A stretch of DNA of 37,482 nucleotides, from the NCBI GenBank assembly GCA_020723435.1, contig DYIV01000013.1, forward strand, positions 1 to 37,482. The letters run 5' to 3'. The stretch comes from Slackia heliotrinireducens (GTDB taxonomy: Bacteria > Actinomycetota > Aquicultoria > DYIV01). Positions 17,601 through 27,380 of this stretch are shown piece after piece; within the stretch, counting starts at the first letter, position 1, and the number at the start of each line of letters is the position of its first letter. The position numbers and the translations under genes were made by a program. The notes beneath the pieces are model-generated. The model had not been told where the DNA came from. It worked only from the letters and a program-made list of their open reading frames with translations, and made no database searches.

Positions 17601-18314
17601 ATGGCGGGCGGCCTGTCCATAGTTGCCGTCTTCTTCGCGGGCGTTCTCTCATTCGCTTCACCATGCGTCGCCGCTCTCGTCCCGGCCTACGTCTCCTACC
17701 TGTCGGGAGTATCCGTCACCGAGCTCGGCGAGTCGCGCAACTTCGCGAAAGTCGTCGCCAACGCCTTGCTCTTCTGCCTCGGCTTCGCTGCCGTCTTCGT
17801 AGCGTTGGGCGCATCGGCCAGCGCTCTCGGAGGATTCCTCTCCGCTAACAAGATCTGGCTCGCCCGCATCGGCGGGATCGTCGTGGTGCTGCTCGGTCTG
17901 CACGTTCTGGGGGTCCTGAGGATCCCGTTTCTGGCCAAGGAGGCCAGGCCCATGTGGGGGAGACTGGGCGGCGGCAGCTACCTCCAGTCGCCGTTCGTGG
18001 GGATGTCGTTCGCGGTCGGCTGGACGCCGTGTCTCGGGCCCGTGCTGTCCGGTGTTCTGCTACTGGCCAGTCAGGCGAAGACGATGGGGCAGGGGGCCCT
18101 CCTGCTGGGAGTCTACTCTCTCGGCCTCGCCGTGCCGTTCGTTCTCGTTGCGATGGCGCTGGCGAAGGGGCTGGATATGTCGTTCATGCGAAAGCACGCG
18201 CGCGCCATCGAGGTCACGAGCGGCGTGCTGCTAATCGTATTCGGAGTCCTCATCTTCACCGGCCGCCTCGCCGTGCTGACGGGACAGTTGAGCAGGTTCG
18301 TTCCGGGTCTCTGA
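17601..18314 (+). CDS. ccdA: CcdA/DsbD-type cytochrome c biogenesis transmembrane protein
   Basis: Multiple TM helices, FASPCVAALVPAYVSYLSG and GWTPCLGPVLSG Cys-Pro motifs. Confidence 0.92.
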   Translation: MAGGLSIVAVFFAGVLSFASPCVAALVPAYVSYLSGVSVTELGESRNFAKVVANALLFCLGFAAVFVALGASASALGGFLSANKIWLARIGGIVVVLLGLHVLGVLRIPFLAKEARPMWGRLGGGSYLQSPFVGMSFAVGWTPCLGPVLSGVLLLASQAKTMGQGALLLGVYSLGLAVPFVLVAMALAKGLDMSFMRKHARAIEVTSGVLLIVFGVLIFTGRLAVLTGQLSRFVPGL

Positions 18315-18340: not shown

Positions 18341-19681
18341 CTAGTAGTCCGGATAGGTGTGCGTCGTCTCATCGGGCAGATTCACGTCGCCCGGCTGGTC
18401 GCCGAGCTGGGAATCATCGGGAGGGGCGGTCGTCGGCTCCGTACTCGGGGCGCTCGTGCCGTCCTCGTCGGTCTCATCGGGCGGTGGTTCTTCCTCGACG
18501 GCGGGATCTTCGACCACGTCGCTCCCACTCTTCTCGCCGCCGGCCGAGGTTGGCTGCAGTGTCATCCCGGGACGGACATCGGTGACGGCCGGCCTGGGAG
18601 TCACGTCGGGTCCAAGCGTGCTCGTCAGGCCGAGAACGACGCCCAGAATCGTCCCGGCGACAATCACGAGGCTCGCAATGGCGATCAGCGCCTTCTGCGT
18701 CGGTGTCAGGGCGGCGATGAAGCGTTTGAGCGCTTCTCGAGCGCCCCGCCGCTTTGCCGATTTCTTCACGCGCCGCGCGGCGCTCTCAGAGACCGTGTCC
18801 ATCCGCGCCGCCGGCTCGCCTCCACCGACGCCACCCTCGGCACCTTCCGGCATCTCCGACGCCGGTTGGCCCTCGCCGCCGGTGGTGCTGCCGTGCGGCA
18901 TCTGAGCCAGTCTGTCGAGCACCCCTGCCCTGAGCGCGGCGGGCGGGATGAGGGGGATGATACCGCGATAGCTCTTGGAGGCCTCGGTCATCTCCTCCAT
19001 CGCCAGGCGGCATAGCGGGCACTCAGCGAGGTGAGCCTCGACGGAAGCCCTCTCATCGTTGGAGAGCTCATCGTCAATGTAGGCCGAGATGAGCGGCAAC
19101 ATGCTCTTGCATTCACTTGTCAGCTTGTCTACGTCAACCGCGGACATACGAAACGCCCCCTTGAACTTCAGGCGTGCGCGCGAGAGAAGCACTCCCACGG
19201 TGTTCTTCGGCATGTCGAGGACCGCCCCGATCTCCTCGTAGGACATGTCTTCGAGCTCACGCAGCGTGAGGATTTCCCGGTGTTCGTCGCGCAGAGCAAA
19301 GGCGGCGCCACGGACCTGGCCTTGCTGCTCCCTGAGCAGTGCCACTCTCTCGGGGTCGGCCGCCAGATGTTCGTCGAGCGCGAACTCGAGTTCCTCAGGA
19401 CCGTCGAAGCGGCTCCGGGCCTTGGCGCTGTCGATCGCGGCGTTGTGGGCCGTCCGGTACAGGTACGCCGAGAATTTCAACTCGCCCTCGATCCTCGGCA
19501 AGGCCTCGAAGACCCTTATGAAGGCATCCTGGGCGATGTCCTTGGCGTCCTCGGTATTGCCGCAGATACCGTAGGCGTAGTTGTAGAGCTTGGAATGGTA
19601 GGCTTCGAACAGCTGCTCGTAGGCGCTCGCGTCACCGCCGCGTGCCGCCTCGACAAGCATGTTCTCGTCCGCGGCTCTCAT
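18341..19681 (-). CDS. ECF sigma factor fused to zinc-finger anti-sigma domain and a TM/extracytoplasmic tail
   Basis: Sigma70 r2/r4-like N-terminus (AYEQLFEAYHSKLYNYAY...DIAQDAFIRVFE; MSYEEIGAVLDMPKNTVGVLLSRARLKF), then HLAECPLC zinc finger, then TM helix ALIAIASLVIVAGTILGVVLG. Confidence 0.88.
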   Translation of the reverse strand: MRAADENMLVEAARGGDASAYEQLFEAYHSKLYNYAYGICGNTEDAKDIAQDAFIRVFEALPRIEGELKFSAYLYRTAHNAAIDSAKARSRFDGPEELEFALDEHLAADPERVALLREQQGQVRGAAFALRDEHREILTLRELEDMSYEEIGAVLDMPKNTVGVLLSRARLKFKGAFRMSAVDVDKLTSECKSMLPLISAYIDDELSNDERASVEAHLAECPLCRLAMEEMTEASKSYRGIIPLIPPAALRAGVLDRLAQMPHGSTTGGEGQPASEMPEGAEGGVGGGEPAARMDTVSESAARRVKKSAKRRGAREALKRFIAALTPTQKALIAIASLVIVAGTILGVVLGLTSTLGPDVTPRPAVTDVRPGMTLQPTSAGGEKSGSDVVEDPAVEEEPPPDETDEDGTSAPSTEPTTAPPDDSQLGDQPGDVNLPDETTHTYPDY

Positions 19682-19890
19682 CTGCATCTCACCCCGCAGT
19701 CTTGATATGACCGTAGCGCGCCGTGGCCCTGGGTGCAAGGTCCCCAAGACGTGCCGCGGGCGCCGCACGGTACCCGGTCTCTACTCTAGTAACGGGGAAG
19801 GGTGCGCGATTATTACGGATGGGCGAGAAGTCCCAGGAATCGAAGCTCCGCGCGCCAACTACGCAGGCGAGCCGATTGGGCAGGGCGGCG

Positions 19891-20868
19891 CTACAGGCGT
19901 CCCGGTTGCGACAGGCCGTTGACGTGGCACGTCGCGCAGAACGTCAGCGAATGGCAACGGACGCAATCGTATATGCCGTTCTTCCTGACTATCTGGAAAT
20001 GCTGCCGCACCCAGGATCCTTTGCGGGCGTCGTAGCCCTTGTGGTGGCACGTAGAACAGAAGTCGCGCTGGGTATGGCAGCGGACGCAGATGAGGGGTGC
20101 TTTGACGCCCGCCTTGGCGTGGCGGTTGAGCGTCGGTCCGGCCCAATCCCTTGGGTGCGGCATGGCAAGTTGATGGCACTTGTCGCAGAACGTCTTGAAG
20201 TGGCACATCGCACACGGTCTGCGGTCCTTGCGCGCCGACGCCCCGTGGTTCTTGCGTGCCCAGACCTTCGACCGGTGAGTGCGGGGCTTCAGGTCGAAGG
20301 TTGAGGGGTGGCACTTGCCGCACTGCCCCGTGGCCTTCGCGCCGGGCTGTACGCCGTGACAGCGGAAGCACGCATCCATCTTGAGGAAGTCGCGGCGGCC
20401 GGATAGACCGGGATGGCTTACGCGATTGTGACACTGCGTGCACGCCATCTTCTGCTTCGTGTGGACGACGTGGTCGATGCGTATGCCCTTCGTCGGCGTG
20501 ACTACTCGCTTCGGGGTATGGCAGTTCAGGCACGTCTCGTTCGTGATCCTCTCCGCCAGGGCGCCTCTCTTGTTGATCGGTTCGCCATAGAGACGCGTCA
20601 CGTGCCGATAGACGAAGGCCACAAGATCGGTCTTGGCTCGGACGAAGGCGCCCAGCCCCGTTCCGCCGTGACAGGCATAGCAGTTGACCTCGGCATGAGG
20701 AGAGATCGAGTAGGCACGGACTTCCGCGCTCATCTCGTGACAGAGTCCGCAGAAGAGCGGGTGCGAAGTTGTCGCCGCCGCGAGCCACAGGAAGGAGAAC
20801 CACATGACCAGCGCGCATGCGACAATCATCGGTACGCGGTACTTGAGCAGCGCCTCGCGCGTGAACAT
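19891..20868 (-). CDS. Membrane-anchored dodecaheme c-type cytochrome
   Basis: N-terminal TM helix, 12 CXXCH motifs; ATG at 20868 just after the previous gene stop. Confidence 0.9.
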   Translation of the reverse strand: MFTREALLKYRVPMIVACALVMWFSFLWLAAATTSHPLFCGLCHEMSAEVRAYSISPHAEVNCYACHGGTGLGAFVRAKTDLVAFVYRHVTRLYGEPINKRGALAERITNETCLNCHTPKRVVTPTKGIRIDHVVHTKQKMACTQCHNRVSHPGLSGRRDFLKMDACFRCHGVQPGAKATGQCGKCHPSTFDLKPRTHRSKVWARKNHGASARKDRRPCAMCHFKTFCDKCHQLAMPHPRDWAGPTLNRHAKAGVKAPLICVRCHTQRDFCSTCHHKGYDARKGSWVRQHFQIVRKNGIYDCVRCHSLTFCATCHVNGLSQPGRL

Positions 20869-20870
20869 CT

Positions 20871-21491
20871 CTAGTGCACCCCCGGCGGCAGTTTCGTCAC
20901 GGGTTTCGTGTGGCAGTAGTCGCAATCGTCCATCTTGTCCTTGTGGCACTCGCTGCACAGCTCGCGAGGGGGAATCAAGAATCGCTTGCCGACGCCCTTG
21001 TGCGCGGCGCCGGGATGGCACTTCACGCAGGACAGACGCGCCCGGATGACGTGCTCGCGGTGGCTTATGCGCAGCTCCGCGGAGGTTGACACGACTCTGT
21101 TGAGCGAGTGGCAACCGGATCGTCGGCACGACTCCACGCCCGGCACCATGACGCCGATCGGCTTGCCGTCGATGCCTGTCACCTGGGCGAATATCTCCCA
21201 ATAGAAGAGAATGCGGTACGCGAAGAGGTTGAATACGCCCTGGCGCACGTGGCAGGACGTGCAATTGGACGCGGCGGTGGCGTGAGAGGAGGCCTTCCAG
21301 CTGTCGTAGTAGGGTTTCATCGTGTGGCACGACGCGCAAGCCTGCGGGCTCGAGGTGTAGTAGTAGGGGATAGCGTAGACGACTACCGCAGCCACAATGG
21401 CTATCAGTGCGATCCTCCTGTAGTTCCTGCCGCCGGATGCGCCCGCCTCGTCGGTGGCGCCGGCGTCGTGGGGTGTGGGCTCCACACCCAT
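20871..21491 (-). CDS. Membrane-anchored hexaheme c-type cytochrome (one CX4CH)
   Basis: TM helix, CASCH, CTSCH, CRRSGCH, CVKCH, CSECH, CDYCH. Confidence 0.88.
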   Translation of the reverse strand: MGVEPTPHDAGATDEAGASGGRNYRRIALIAIVAAVVVYAIPYYYTSSPQACASCHTMKPYYDSWKASSHATAASNCTSCHVRQGVFNLFAYRILFYWEIFAQVTGIDGKPIGVMVPGVESCRRSGCHSLNRVVSTSAELRISHREHVIRARLSCVKCHPGAAHKGVGKRFLIPPRELCSECHKDKMDDCDYCHTKPVTKLPPGVH

Positions 21492-21495
21492 ACGT

Positions 21496-22383
21496 CTACT
21501 GCACAAACTTCGGCGCCTTCTCTATGTTCAGCTGCGGCACTTCACCGTGACAGCGCACGCAGAACGGCCGCGGATGGCAGGCCTCGCAGTTGCGGCGCGC
21601 TCTCACCTTGTACTGGTGGAGCGTTCGCCACCGATCGCCGTGCGACCGGGGTTTGCGCTCGTGGCACTCGCGGCACCAGGCCTTGACCCACCCATGACAA
21701 CTGCGGCAGTCGACCTTCTTGGTTTGGGAAGGATGAATAACCAGCCAGGTCGCCGATCGATGGCTGACCGGGAATGTCTTCTTCTTGTGACAAGAGGTGC
21801 AGGCGTTCTTGGCCTTCTTGCCGTCGTGACAGACGAGACAGGTGGCCATGCGTGGCGTATGGGTGCCTTCCGGGTTCTTGAAGTGGACGACGTACTTGTG
21901 GCAGTGAACGCAGGCCAGTTTGAGCACGATGACGTGCGCGCGGTGCGGGATCTTCAGGTCGCCCGACGGTGAGACGGTGCGGTTGGTCCCGTGGCAGTTG
22001 GCGCATGCCGCGTTGGGTGGCGCCTTGAACAGCGTGGGCCTTCGACCGGCCGAAACGACCGAAAGGTAGAACTCCCCGACCATCCGGGCGTTGAAAGCAA
22101 GCTGGGAGAGCCTGTCCGGCTTGATGTGGCAGCTCTGGCAGCTCACCTCAGCGTGCGTCGAATGGTTCCAGGTCGAGTAGAACTTCTGGGTGTTGGAGAA
22201 GCGGTTCATGAAGGTCGGCTGCGAGGCTATGAAGCCGGGCAAAGCGACGGTCAGCGCAAACATCGCCGCGAAAAGGCCAGCGGCGAGAAGCCATGGGCTG
22301 CGTCTCGCGACGGCCCGCACGTGGTCGCGGAACCGATCGATCATCCTTGCGATGCGCCCCTTCGGCGCCGCTTCTTTGGTCAC
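21496..22383 (-). CDS. Membrane-anchored nonaheme c-type cytochrome
   Basis: TM helix, 9 CXXCH motifs. Confidence 0.9.
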   Translation of the reverse strand: MTKEAAPKGRIARMIDRFRDHVRAVARRSPWLLAAGLFAAMFALTVALPGFIASQPTFMNRFSNTQKFYSTWNHSTHAEVSCQSCHIKPDRLSQLAFNARMVGEFYLSVVSAGRRPTLFKAPPNAACANCHGTNRTVSPSGDLKIPHRAHVIVLKLACVHCHKYVVHFKNPEGTHTPRMATCLVCHDGKKAKNACTSCHKKKTFPVSHRSATWLVIHPSQTKKVDCRSCHGWVKAWCRECHERKPRSHGDRWRTLHQYKVRARRNCEACHPRPFCVRCHGEVPQLNIEKAPKFVQ

Positions 22384-22387
22384 CGGC

Positions 22388-23239
22388 TCATCCCTGCTTC
22401 AGACGGTTGAAGATCGACTTGTCGTGACACTTGAGGCAGAACGGCTTTCCGCCGTGACAGAAGAGGCACCCCTTGCCGCGCTCTCGAGCGCGGACTCGGT
22501 GGAGCTTCTTCCAGTTGCCGCGATGCGTCGTTGGTCGCTTAACGTGGCAAGCTTGACACAGCCTGGGCGCCCAGCCGTGACACGTGCCGCAGTTGATCTC
22601 GGCCGTCCGCCGCCCGTGCGTCGCCAGCCAGCCGCGGTGCTTGTGGTTCGGCGGCACCTGCTTCTGCGTGTGGCACTTCGCGCACTTGTCCGTCGCCTTC
22701 TTGCCGTTGTGACAAGACGCGAGGCAGAACGTCATCTTCGGCCGGTTGTAGCCCTCGACGTTCCTGTAGTGGACGAGACGCTGGTGGCACATCACACACT
22801 TGAGCTTGAGAACCAGCACGTGAGCCCGGTGAGGGATTCTGAGGTCACCACCGGGTGATACCGTGCGATATGCTGTGTGGCACTGCTGGCACGCCTGATT
22901 CGTCGGCAGTCCGAGCAGATTCGTCTCGTTTGGACCGGCGACGATCTGCTCGTAGAAGGCTGGAATCGACTTCAGGGCGAAGGACGCCTGATTCTCCAGA
23001 CCGGGGCCAACGTGGCAGGCCGCACAGCTCCATACTGAGTGGGTCGACCCGCGCCAGTTGACCATGCGTGACCTCAAGGCCGGGTAGCGTTCGTAGTAGG
23101 CCGGCTGCAGCGCTGAGAAGACCGGCCAGAAGACTGCGAAGACACAGAGCGCGACCAGGGCGGCAATCACGACCCTCCTGGTCGACCGCGGCTTCTCGTC
23201 CTTCTTCTGTTGCGTCTCGGGCGTAGTCTCGTCAGCCAT
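22388..23239 (-). CDS. Membrane-anchored nonaheme c-type cytochrome (one CX3CH)
   Basis: TM helix, 8 CXXCH plus CLASCH; paralogous to the neighbour at 21496-22383. Confidence 0.9.
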   Translation of the reverse strand: MADETTPETQQKKDEKPRSTRRVVIAALVALCVFAVFWPVFSALQPAYYERYPALRSRMVNWRGSTHSVWSCAACHVGPGLENQASFALKSIPAFYEQIVAGPNETNLLGLPTNQACQQCHTAYRTVSPGGDLRIPHRAHVLVLKLKCVMCHQRLVHYRNVEGYNRPKMTFCLASCHNGKKATDKCAKCHTQKQVPPNHKHRGWLATHGRRTAEINCGTCHGWAPRLCQACHVKRPTTHRGNWKKLHRVRARERGKGCLFCHGGKPFCLKCHDKSIFNRLKQG

Positions 23240-23378
23240 AGCAGCCTTGGGACTCTGTTGGCGAGGTGATCTTCCCCTGCCGGCTCAGACCGGTGCCGCC
23301 CGCGCGGCGTGTCCGCGGCGTGCCGGGCTCGACTAGACCGGTGTCGCACGCGAAACGGGTGAGGACGCCTGCTGCCGC

Positions 23379-24404
23379 CTAGCGTCCTTCCTTGAACACC
23401 CTGTGACAGTCATTGCAGTCTTTCTTCACGTGGCAGGCGAGGCAGCGGGCTTCCTTCTTGCCCTTGCCCAGCTTCTGGTGTCTGCCCAGCCACGTGGATT
23501 TCGGTCCATGGAACGCCGGTCGCCTGGAGTGGCAGTCCTTGCAGGCCTCGGCGGAACCGTGGCAGTAGAAGCACCGCTCTTCGTCCGCCTGCGCCTCCTG
23601 GCCGTGGACGGTATCCCAGTTGCTCGCCGAGTGCTTGGCGATGAGGCCTGTCAGCCTCTTGGGGGCCGTGCCCTTCTCCTCGAACGGGTTCTTGCCCGTC
23701 TCATGGCAGGTGCGGCACTGCGCAGGCTTGTGGCAGTAGTCCATGCAGTTGTTCTCGCCTCGCCGGTCCACTACGGATGGGTGCCTCTTGCGCCAGTCGG
23801 CCGGCTTGAAGGACTGCGTGTGATGGCAAAGCTTGCATTCGTCCTTCTTCTTCGTGCCGGCGTGGCAGCCGAATGAGATGCAAATGCCGGTGAAAGGCAT
23901 TGTCGTGTGGCGCTTCTGGTACTTCTCGCTGTGGGCGACCCATTTGTGGCACGAGATGCAGTCCCTCGTCTCTTTCGCAAGATCGGGATGGGCCGGGTGC
24001 GGCACCTGCATGAGACGTTTGACGTTGAATGCGCGCTCGTTCTTGTGGCAATTGCGGCAGCCGGCGGAGGAGGCTGGCGGCAGGGTGGCGATGGCGGGTC
24101 GTAGCGCATTGGGCTTGGAGCGATAGTACTCGCCGACGAGGCCGGCGTTTCGCACGACGGCGTTGTCGGAGCCGACGTGACACTGCATGCAGGCCACGTC
24201 CTTGTGCGAGGATGTCTTCCAGGCCTTGTATCGATCGGCGTAGCGCTGGTAGCGGCCGTAGAACGTCGGATCGCTCGTGGCGTACAGCGGCACGGCGACC
24301 GCGCCCAGCACAACGAGAGCGCTTGCCGCGGCGGCGATGATTCGCCAGGGTATTCGGCGCCCGCGAGGGGCTTTCAGTTGAGACCTCTTTGGCCGCTCAG
24401 TCAT
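23379..24404 (-). CDS. Membrane-anchored undecaheme c-type cytochrome (one CX3CH, one CX4CH)
   Basis: TM helix, 9 CXXCH plus CISFGCH and CMDYCH. Confidence 0.9.
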   Translation of the reverse strand: MTERPKRSQLKAPRGRRIPWRIIAAAASALVVLGAVAVPLYATSDPTFYGRYQRYADRYKAWKTSSHKDVACMQCHVGSDNAVVRNAGLVGEYYRSKPNALRPAIATLPPASSAGCRNCHKNERAFNVKRLMQVPHPAHPDLAKETRDCISCHKWVAHSEKYQKRHTTMPFTGICISFGCHAGTKKKDECKLCHHTQSFKPADWRKRHPSVVDRRGENNCMDYCHKPAQCRTCHETGKNPFEEKGTAPKRLTGLIAKHSASNWDTVHGQEAQADEERCFYCHGSAEACKDCHSRRPAFHGPKSTWLGRHQKLGKGKKEARCLACHVKKDCNDCHRVFKEGR

Positions 24405-24425: not shown

Positions 24426-25676
24426 CTAGACGTGCGTTGTGGCTTCGGCTTGCAGCGCCGCCGCGGGCACGTCCTCGTGACCGTTATCACTCGCCTGGGT
24501 GGCATTCTCGCCGTGCGGCGCCGATTCCATCGGCAACAGCTTCACCGCCATGGTGAAGATGAGAATTCCGAGCGCCCAGATGCCGGCGGTGATCGCCACC
24601 TCAGGCACCGTCGGCAGGTAGCTGGCGTCGAACGGTCCGAGAACCGAGACGCCGAATCCCATCGCCAGCAATGCGAAGCGCTTCAAGAAGATCCCAATGA
24701 CGATCAGCACGCAGGCCGTTGCCAGCGTCCAGACCTTGCGGCGGGTCTTCGGGAAGAGCAGCAGGAAGAAGGGCAGTGCGCCGAATACCGTCAGCTCGGG
24801 GACGAAGAACTTGGCGTAGGGGCCCCATAGCAGCAAGCCCAGCCGCGTGGCGTGGCCCGGCGTTCGCGACGGCGGCCAAAAGGTCGTCATGATCTCCACG
24901 AAGAGGAAGAACAGATCGACGAAGACAACCGTCCCCAGCACTTTGCCGAGGGTGAAGAACATGTCGTCGGGCAGTTTCATCTTCGCGAAGTAGCGCAGCG
25001 CCATCCCTATCAGAATCAGCAGGGCGATGCCCGAAGCCATTGCCGACGACAGGAACAGAGGGGCCATTAGCGCGGAATGCCACAGCTCTCTGGTCTTGGC
25101 GAACGACAGGATCCACGCGGTAACGGTGTGGACCCCGACCGCAGCCGGGAACGAGATCAGTGTCAGCTTGAACTCCAGGCTGTGTCCGCCCTTGCCCGTG
25201 ATCATGACGTACAGGTCGATGACGCAGAGCACCAGGTAGAGATTGAGGATGGTCGCGTCCCAGAACAGCGTCGCCTGAGGATTCGGCGACGTGATGAACT
25301 GGTAGGCCCTCCAGGGAATGCCGATGTCGGGAATGATGAACAGCGCCGCGAGGAGGTTACAGACGAATGCCTGCAGCACCGCGATGCGTGCGATCGGCTC
25401 GAACTTCTTCGCGCCGAACAGCTGGATGCTCGCGTAGGTGACCAGTCCGCCGGCCGAAAGCCCGACGAAGTACATGAAGTTCTGGATGTAGAGGCCCCAC
25501 GGGAATGCGTCGTGCAGTCCGGTCACTGCGAGACCGTTGCGAAGCTGGAGCACGTATGCGTAGCCGGCTATGACGAGCAGAATGACGAAGGTACTCACCC
25601 AGGCCCAGAACCAGGGTGTCGACTTCTTCAGCTCGTCGATTCGGATTTCTACGCCGGCTAGGTTTGGATTGGCCAT
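24426..25676 (-). CDS. NrfD/PsrC-family integral membrane subunit
   Basis: About ten hydrophobic helices; GLYIQNFMYFVGLSAGGLVTYASIQLFG typical of NrfD family. Confidence 0.88.
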   Translation of the reverse strand: MANPNLAGVEIRIDELKKSTPWFWAWVSTFVILLVIAGYAYVLQLRNGLAVTGLHDAFPWGLYIQNFMYFVGLSAGGLVTYASIQLFGAKKFEPIARIAVLQAFVCNLLAALFIIPDIGIPWRAYQFITSPNPQATLFWDATILNLYLVLCVIDLYVMITGKGGHSLEFKLTLISFPAAVGVHTVTAWILSFAKTRELWHSALMAPLFLSSAMASGIALLILIGMALRYFAKMKLPDDMFFTLGKVLGTVVFVDLFFLFVEIMTTFWPPSRTPGHATRLGLLLWGPYAKFFVPELTVFGALPFFLLLFPKTRRKVWTLATACVLIVIGIFLKRFALLAMGFGVSVLGPFDASYLPTVPEVAITAGIWALGILIFTMAVKLLPMESAPHGENATQASDNGHEDVPAAALQAEATTHV

Positions 25677-25682
25677 CTTCGC

Positions 25683-26561
25683 TTACCCCACGTAGTAGAT
25701 GTTGGGCTCAGTGCCCAGCTCCTCTTTGAGCCTGAACAGCAGCCGCCGGTTCTTCAGCATCTGAGCGACCTCGCTCTTCGGATCGAGCACGTTTCCGAAC
25801 TTGCGAGCTCTGACCGGACAGACCTCCGTGCAGCGCGTCTCCGCCTTGCCGTCGCGGATGCGATGAATGCAGAACGTGCACTTCTCGACGACTCCTGTCG
25901 GCCGAATCGGCACTGCCGGGTTGCGATTGATCTCCTTGGCGGGTATCACCGGTTTCTTCCAGTTGAAGTGGCGCGCGTGGTAGGGGCAGTTGATCATGCA
26001 GGCGCGGCAGCCGATGCACTTGCGGTAGTCCTGGATGACCAGGCCGTCGGCCTCTTTGCGGGTGGCCCGCACGGGGCAGTTGAGTACGCATGGAGGGTCG
26101 TCACAGTGCATGCACTGGACGGGCATGTACCACTTCCCCGGGTCGCCGCCCTCGGTGTAGTAGGGGTTCGCCGTCTCCAGCTCGATCTTGCCCGCTTCCA
26201 TTTCCAGAAGCTGGATGTAGGTGAAACCCGAGTCGCGGCCGATGTTGTTCTCCGACACGCACGCCCAGGCGCATTTGCGGCAACCCACGCAGGCTTTGAC
26301 ATCGATGACCATGGCCCACTTCGTGTGAGCGGGAGCGGGCTTGGCGTAGTAGACCGGATTCGGGTCGAACGCGAACTCGTGTCCCTCGCCTTGAGGTCCC
26401 TCCGCGGTCTCGGCAAGGGGGCCGCCGTTCTCCTCGGCCGCGAACGCGGACAGCATGGGAAAGGCGCCCAGGGCGATTCCGCCAACGGTCAGGCCGGCGG
26501 CCTTCAAGAAGTCACGTCGCGAGACGTCGCCGGCGCGCTCTTTCTCGCTAGAGTTGGCCAT
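25683..26561 (-). CDS. Tat-exported 4x[4Fe-4S] ferredoxin-type electron transfer subunit (NrfC/DsrO/HybA-like)
   Basis: SRRDFLKAAG Tat motif; CVGCRKCAWAC, CMHCDDPPCVLNCP, CIGCRACMINCPY, CTFC...CTEVCP clusters. Confidence 0.92.
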   Translation of the reverse strand: MANSSEKERAGDVSRRDFLKAAGLTVGGIALGAFPMLSAFAAEENGGPLAETAEGPQGEGHEFAFDPNPVYYAKPAPAHTKWAMVIDVKACVGCRKCAWACVSENNIGRDSGFTYIQLLEMEAGKIELETANPYYTEGGDPGKWYMPVQCMHCDDPPCVLNCPVRATRKEADGLVIQDYRKCIGCRACMINCPYHARHFNWKKPVIPAKEINRNPAVPIRPTGVVEKCTFCIHRIRDGKAETRCTEVCPVRARKFGNVLDPKSEVAQMLKNRRLLFRLKEELGTEPNIYYVG

Positions 26562-27270
26562 GATGCCTCCGTCTCCTCAGGATGGGAAGGGCCCAGACGC
26601 CCGCGATGCCGAGAAGCCCGAGCAGCGACAGGACGTTCATAGACAAGAACACGGGCGGATCGGGTATCGGCGGCGGTCCGGGGAGAGCCGCAAAGCGCTC
26701 GCGCTCTCCGACCGCCTTGATCTCAATAGTCGTCCCGACGTAGGGAAGGAGAGGGGATATCCCAATCCAGCTCGGCGCGTGCGGGTTGTGGCATCCCATG
26801 GCGGAGCAGCTCGGCTTCTTGCCGTGAAAGCCCGCCCTCCACGCGTTGTATTTGTCCTCGTGACAGCGGAAGCAGACCAGTGACGTGTTGCCCTTTATGT
26901 CGACGAGCCCTCCGTCTATCAGCTTCAGCTTGCCGGGATTGGCGTTGCGCGACGAGTGGCAGACCAGACACGCGGTCTTGCCCTTGCCGAGCACGTCGTG
27001 AACCTCAAGCTTGATTCGATGGCCCTTGAATCCGTTCGGCCGGGAGGAGGCAGGATTGGCTCCGGTCGGATGGCATCTCGTGCAAGGGTAGAAGACCAGA
27101 GCACCCGTGCTCGCGCGACCGGCGGATGCGGTTCGAGGCGTGAGCAGGGTGACAAGGAGCAGGGCTGGGACGAGTGCTCCCAGGATCTGGAGATTGCGTT
27201 TCGGGGCTTCGCTTGCGCTTCCGTCGGAATGTGCCTGCGTGATGCCCCTAGCTGCCGTTTCTGTCACCAT
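26548..27270 (-). CDS. Tetraheme c-type cytochrome with C-terminal TM helix (one CX4CH)
   Basis: CTRCH, CLVCH, CFRCH, CSAMGCH; C-terminal helix and RRRRHH anchor; start codon (27270 or 27333) uncertain. Confidence 0.82.
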   Translation of the reverse strand: MVTETAARGITQAHSDGSASEAPKRNLQILGALVPALLLVTLLTPRTASAGRASTGALVFYPCTRCHPTGANPASSRPNGFKGHRIKLEVHDVLGKGKTACLVCHSSRNANPGKLKLIDGGLVDIKGNTSLVCFRCHEDKYNAWRAGFHGKKPSCSAMGCHNPHAPSWIGISPLLPYVGTTIEIKAVGERERFAALPGPPPIPDPPVFLSMNVLSLLGLLGIAGVWALPILRRRRHHGQL

Positions 27271-27380
27271 TCTCAAACGTCTTGTTCCCTGGATCGTGGC
27301 TCGTGAATCCGTTCTCTTGGGACCGCTCGCCACATCCTTGAGAGGTCCGAAATGCCACTTACTAGGATGACGCCCGTTTA

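Follow-up and report, generated by a model that had tools for sequence, protein, structure and literature searches.

The window, by which we mean the whole 37,482-nucleotide stretch of DNA analyzed here, encodes a run of multiheme cytochromes on the minus strand. In minus-strand order, a small cytochrome is followed by a DsrO-like FeS protein, a DsrP/NrfD-like protein, and then cytochromes C, B, A, D, and E. From the small cytochrome to E the gaps between genes are short, or the genes overlap, and A, B, and C apparently share one operon with the NrfD/FeS quinone module. A CcdA/DsbD-type thiol protein, belonging to a type that serves cytochrome c maturation, is encoded nearby. The genes are as follows:

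26548..27333, minus strand: small four-heme cytochrome, three CX2CH motifs and a CX4CH motif (CSAMGCH) at the last heme
25683..26561, minus strand: DsrO-like ferredoxin subunit with a Tat signal
24426..25676, minus strand: NrfD/DsrP-like integral membrane quinone subunit
23379..24404, minus strand: cytochrome C, 341 aa, 11 hemes, family heme 1 gone
22388..23239, minus strand: cytochrome B, 283 aa, 9 hemes, family heme 1 gone
21496..22383, minus strand: cytochrome A, 295 aa, 9 hemes, all CX2CH, family heme 1 gone
20871..21506, minus strand: cytochrome D, six-heme NapC/NrfH-like, CX4CH (CRRSGCH, 21108-21128) at the third heme
19891..20868, minus strand: cytochrome E, twelve-heme NrfH-like, all CX2CH, heme 1 kept
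17601..18314, plus strand: CcdA/DsbD-type transmembrane thiol protein

Downstream of the cytochrome genes, positions 18341-19768 encode an ECF sigma factor with a C-terminal zinc-finger domain of the anti-sigma type.

Cytochromes A, B, and C differ in the spacing of their heme-ligating cysteines at one site, hereafter the variable site, and C has a second non-standard motif:

21826..21840, minus strand: variable site in A, CLVCH (CX2CH)
22709..22726, minus strand: variable site in B, CLASCH (CX3CH)
23862..23882, minus strand: variable site in C, CISFGCH (CX4CH)
23730..23747, minus strand: second non-standard site in C, CMDYCH (CX3CH)

A preliminary description of this DNA had reported the first three motifs, and both the motifs and their coordinates proved exact on the minus strand. 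It had also taken them to be homologous in position, which was borne out by three-way, 59-row, and 141-row alignments, each with Cys...Cys-His in one column. When A, B, and C are aligned with one another, both cysteines and the histidine share columns, and the CX2CH motifs before and after them are in register. Heme sites around the variable site are almost all CX2CH in the 141-member alignment, and those immediately flanking it show no change of spacing in any of the three alignments. The same description called the site the fourth heme. This is true of A, B, and C, but in the family it is the fifth site, since these three proteins have lost heme 1. In c7 numbering it aligns with heme III, which is the central one in each c7 module of 3ov0 and has a CX2CH motif there (CGACHNGKDA).

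We rejected homology between the CX4CH motifs of C and D, as that of D sits in another heme column. The D motif, like CMDYCH of C, was absent from the preliminary description. Six-heme NapC/NrfH-like proteins of the window's class (L043-L053) commonly have CX4CH at the third heme (CQRxGCH and similar).

All three proteins match the cytochrome c7-like module PF14522 above its cut-off of 24.8 bits (A, 41.7; B, 37.0; C, 28.1). The NapC/NrfH family PF03264 (cut-off 24.1 bits) is matched by C (38.8 bits) and D (44.2 bits), and A and B have no match to it. A combined profile of A, B, and C matches NrfH (2j7a) at 2.9e-05, and a 24-member family profile matches the Geobacter c7 polymer 3ov0 at 2e-21 and 2j7a at 2.8e-15. 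The best solved-structure sequence matches are 3ov0 for the c7-like module and 2j7a for the N-terminal part. These matches are best explained if A, B, and C combine NapC/NrfH-type and c7 parts and serve as relay cytochromes anchored in the membrane.

In nearly all relatives the CXXCH of the first, quinol-linked heme, usually CXXCHxM, adjoins the membrane segment. It is present in 55 of 59 aligned rows, D and E included, and missing in A, B, C, and L056. Where relatives read, for example, QPVFCNTCHI, the corresponding residues of A, B, and C are QPTFMNRFSN, QPAYYERYPA, and DPTFYGRYQR; the loss is total, with both cysteines and the histidine gone. Because this motif is missing, A, B, and C are not filed as PF03264 quinol dehydrogenases. 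The shared loss favors local duplication, by which the three genes probably arose after the NapC/NrfH heme 1 had disappeared. It would be explained if the NrfD/FeS module had taken over contact with quinol, which would have left A, B, and C as relays. From the anatomy of these proteins, we infer that the module did replace heme 1 in this role in the window lineage, and electrons would then pass from NrfD/FeS into A, B, and C. In the stretches retrieved from other genomes, no NrfD or FeS relatives accompany the tandem cytochromes.

Relatives were gathered from genomes of the window's class and phylum but of other orders, and 141 family members were aligned. Most are 10- or 12-heme proteins, frequently encoded as tandem pairs. 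A scan of named genomes with B as the query returned one weak, distant match only. Among the 1496 heme motifs of the 141 members, 1465 are CX2CH, 10 are CX3CH, and 21 are CX4CH. At the variable site, 131 of 140 aligned proteins have CX2, six have CX3, and three have CX4. This one site accounts for 9 of the 31 non-CX2CH motifs, including 6 of the 10 CX3CH motifs; outside it, 22 of 1356 motifs are non-CX2. Thirteen CX4 motifs occupy the third heme position, most of them in six-heme proteins of the D subfamily, and each remaining site has zero to two exceptions.

In the alignment, CX3 occurs at the variable site in B, G037 (CMKSCH), G013 and G005 (both CWEKCH), and two paralogues of G007 (CMQNCH and CMRNCH), and CX4 in C, G021 (CAQRDCH), and G031 (CAGSGCH). 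Scanning 397 genomes for the pattern revealed a seventh CX3 case, which alignment confirmed; the motif is CKKRCH, and the protein, from G013, is NapC-like. A further CX3 match, in G290, was left out of the counts. Beyond B and C, six relatives thus have CX3CH at this site and two have CX4CH. CWEKCH is common to two families (G005 and G013) and CM[QR]NCH to the two G007 paralogues and, to judge from these sequences, the expanded spacing is retained across substantial divergence. By a count made by hand, the variable site holds 3-4 of about 7-8 origins of CX3 and 6-7 of 17-18 origins of any change (binomial p ~0.001-0.02, values that are post hoc and rough). Even so, the variable site resembles a hot spot of length change. 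In one relative, a 35-heme protein (L131:7852-10248) adjoins a protein whose variable site is CX4CH.

Such recurrence could reflect adaptive tuning, in which a longer loop changes the redox potential or docking of the heme in each relay. The changes recur at one of twelve sites, and G005 and G013, like the window, have CX2 and CX3 paralogues next to each other, both of which would fit tuning. However, plain loop tolerance accounts for the recurrence equally well. An Asn following the His in eight of nine expanded sites, versus 43 of 131 CX2 sites, would also speak for tuning, but relatedness among the proteins confounds this, and the tenth expanded case has Asp. For the same two reasons we rejected this Asn as a marker of the expanded loop. 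We regard tuning as unlikely. Equally doubtful, if not slightly more so, is the idea that the CX2, CX3, and CX4 tandem paralogues are kept for differing potentials or partners, which would make the operon a graded relay set.

A maximum-likelihood tree was built without the columns of the variable site itself. The best tree joins A and C as sister rows (92/93) and places B, together with a relative, L048, that also has CX3CH, in the same small group as A and C, along with CX2 relatives (95/93). The spacing state at the variable site changes at least five times on this tree. A single clade for all CX3 and CX4 rows was rejected by the AU test (p=0.006), and one for all CX3 rows was weakly rejected (p=0.031). 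Alignment and tree together indicate that CX3CH and CX4CH arose at this site more than once in the family. AU tests did not reject A+B (p=0.49) or B+L048 (p=0.35). Quick trees paired A with B (69) when C was left out and A with C (78) when B was left out, in both cases with L048 beside the pair, and without two long rows A+C was recovered at 90. The long branches of B (1.2) and C (2.5) leave the relationship among A, B, and C unsettled.

The preliminary description had proposed an ordered series in which, after duplication, single residues were inserted stepwise from CX2 (A) through CX3 (B) to CX4 (C). The three genes are adjacent and share the loss of heme 1, and neither a single A+B+C clade (p=0.58) nor a pairing of B with C (p=0.37) was rejected, all of which would suit such a ladder. 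The best tree and two of the quick trees nevertheless tend to pair A with C, and the same change occurs elsewhere in the family without such a series. Moreover, L048 lies in or beside the trio, and CX3 may therefore predate A. Given this neighbor, A may as well have lost a residue as B have gained one, and with CX3 as the ancestral state of the trio, a single shortening in A plus a single lengthening in C would be as economical as the ladder. The order put forward earlier was thus not sustained: a stepwise series is one of several orders that these data allow and not the favored one, and we consider it improbable.

Another possibility is that the expanded sites have decayed and no longer hold heme. 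Loss of heme is known in the family, at heme 1 of A, B, C, and L056. However, the loss of heme 1 from A, B, and C took all three of its ligands with it, whereas at the variable site 140 of the 141 proteins in the alignment retain theirs. The expanded state also persists between diverged relatives, and the histidines outside the motifs equal the hemes in number in both B (9 for 9) and C (11 for 11). Decay is therefore very unlikely, as the preliminary description had also judged. The ligating cysteines and histidine and their surroundings are retained, and an in-frame change of length that spared these ligands fits best. Heme is likely present at the expanded sites of B and C, as their ligands and spare histidines suggest. 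B was modeled with AlphaFold2 together with its paralogues from the window, but the result (mean pLDDT 42.7, pTM 0.25) was too poor for ligand assignment.

Identification of the cytochrome c synthase type, a check proposed in the preliminary description, yielded a System I*-like set. The genome encodes a CcmE with CPSKF in place of the usual heme-binding histidine motif (L146:1941-2339; CcmE profile, 75.5 bits), and CcmF follows it (L146:1941-4362 for the pair; CcmF_C profile, 108 bits). The CcmH profile had matches in four control genomes and none in this genome, a 94% complete draft from which CcmH could be absent by chance. We rejected System II (ResB/CcsBA), as no ResB was found above the cut-off in the genome and the one weak match is the C-terminus of CcmF. 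System I* has been described previously, and the F variant of its CcmE motif is rare (PMC3601427). In System I*, CcmF is present and CcmH is often absent, as found here, and the predicted maturation set of the window genome fits a System I*-like type. The Ccm set of Methanosarcina acetivorans, with a CXXXY CcmE and no CcmH, makes cytochromes c (PMC9084895), and in MmcA of that organism heme was detected by a 615.17-Da mass shift on CXXCH, CXXXCH, and CXXXXCH peptides (PMC11024163). We infer that the maturase of the window genome is likewise permissive toward longer spacing. Further multiheme cytochromes of this genome (L058:3133-11197) have CX3CH motifs (CSSSCH, CFETCH, and CFWFCH).

The reading we favor, and hold to be fairly probable, is that the variable site is a recurrently length-variable, functional heme loop that keeps its heme, served by a permissive System I*-like Ccm machinery, in proteins that act as relays. 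Under this reading, the NapC/NrfH heme 1 would have been lost first, and local duplication would then have yielded A, B, and C. The loop between the cysteine pair of the c7-like heme III would tolerate one or two added residues, and several in-frame changes of loop length would have occurred in the family, through gain and perhaps also through loss. The heme would stay bound to the two cysteines, with the neighboring histidine as its ligand, its attachment at the longer spacing being possible because the proposed Ccm machinery is permissive.

CX3CH and CX4CH hemes are already known. MmcA resembles the window proteins in carrying covalent heme on all three spacings, in a host with a Cys-type CcmE and no CcmH (PMC11024163), but it is archaeal and its three spacings lie at different hemes of one protein, whereas here they lie at one homologous heme in three paralogues. 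Homologues of ImcH and CymA are likewise NapC/NrfH-type membrane cytochromes with an atypical CX3CH (PMC6295460). Their CX3CH adjoins the membrane segment, whereas that of the window belongs to a c7-like module further downstream, as its heme III. In cytochrome c3 the CX4CH hemes are II and IV. This protein of sulfate reducers shares a related multiheme fold and has CXXXXCH at two hemes (PMC10454114), but the variable site of the window aligns with c7 heme III, which is normally CX2CH. The Geobacter protein 3ov0 differs in having no membrane part and in its aligned heme III sites, which are CX2CH, and NrfH 2j7a differs from A, B, and C in keeping heme 1.

Heme attachment at CX3CH and CX4CH motifs is little understood, and such motifs are usually met in unrelated proteins. 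Cytochromes A, B, and C are a natural matched set, in which spacing differs at one homologous heme within one apparent operon and under one maturation system, and they allow direct tests of the tolerance of the maturase and of the effect of spacing on the heme. Counts based on CXXCH motifs only underestimate the number of hemes in the group to which A, B, and C belong.
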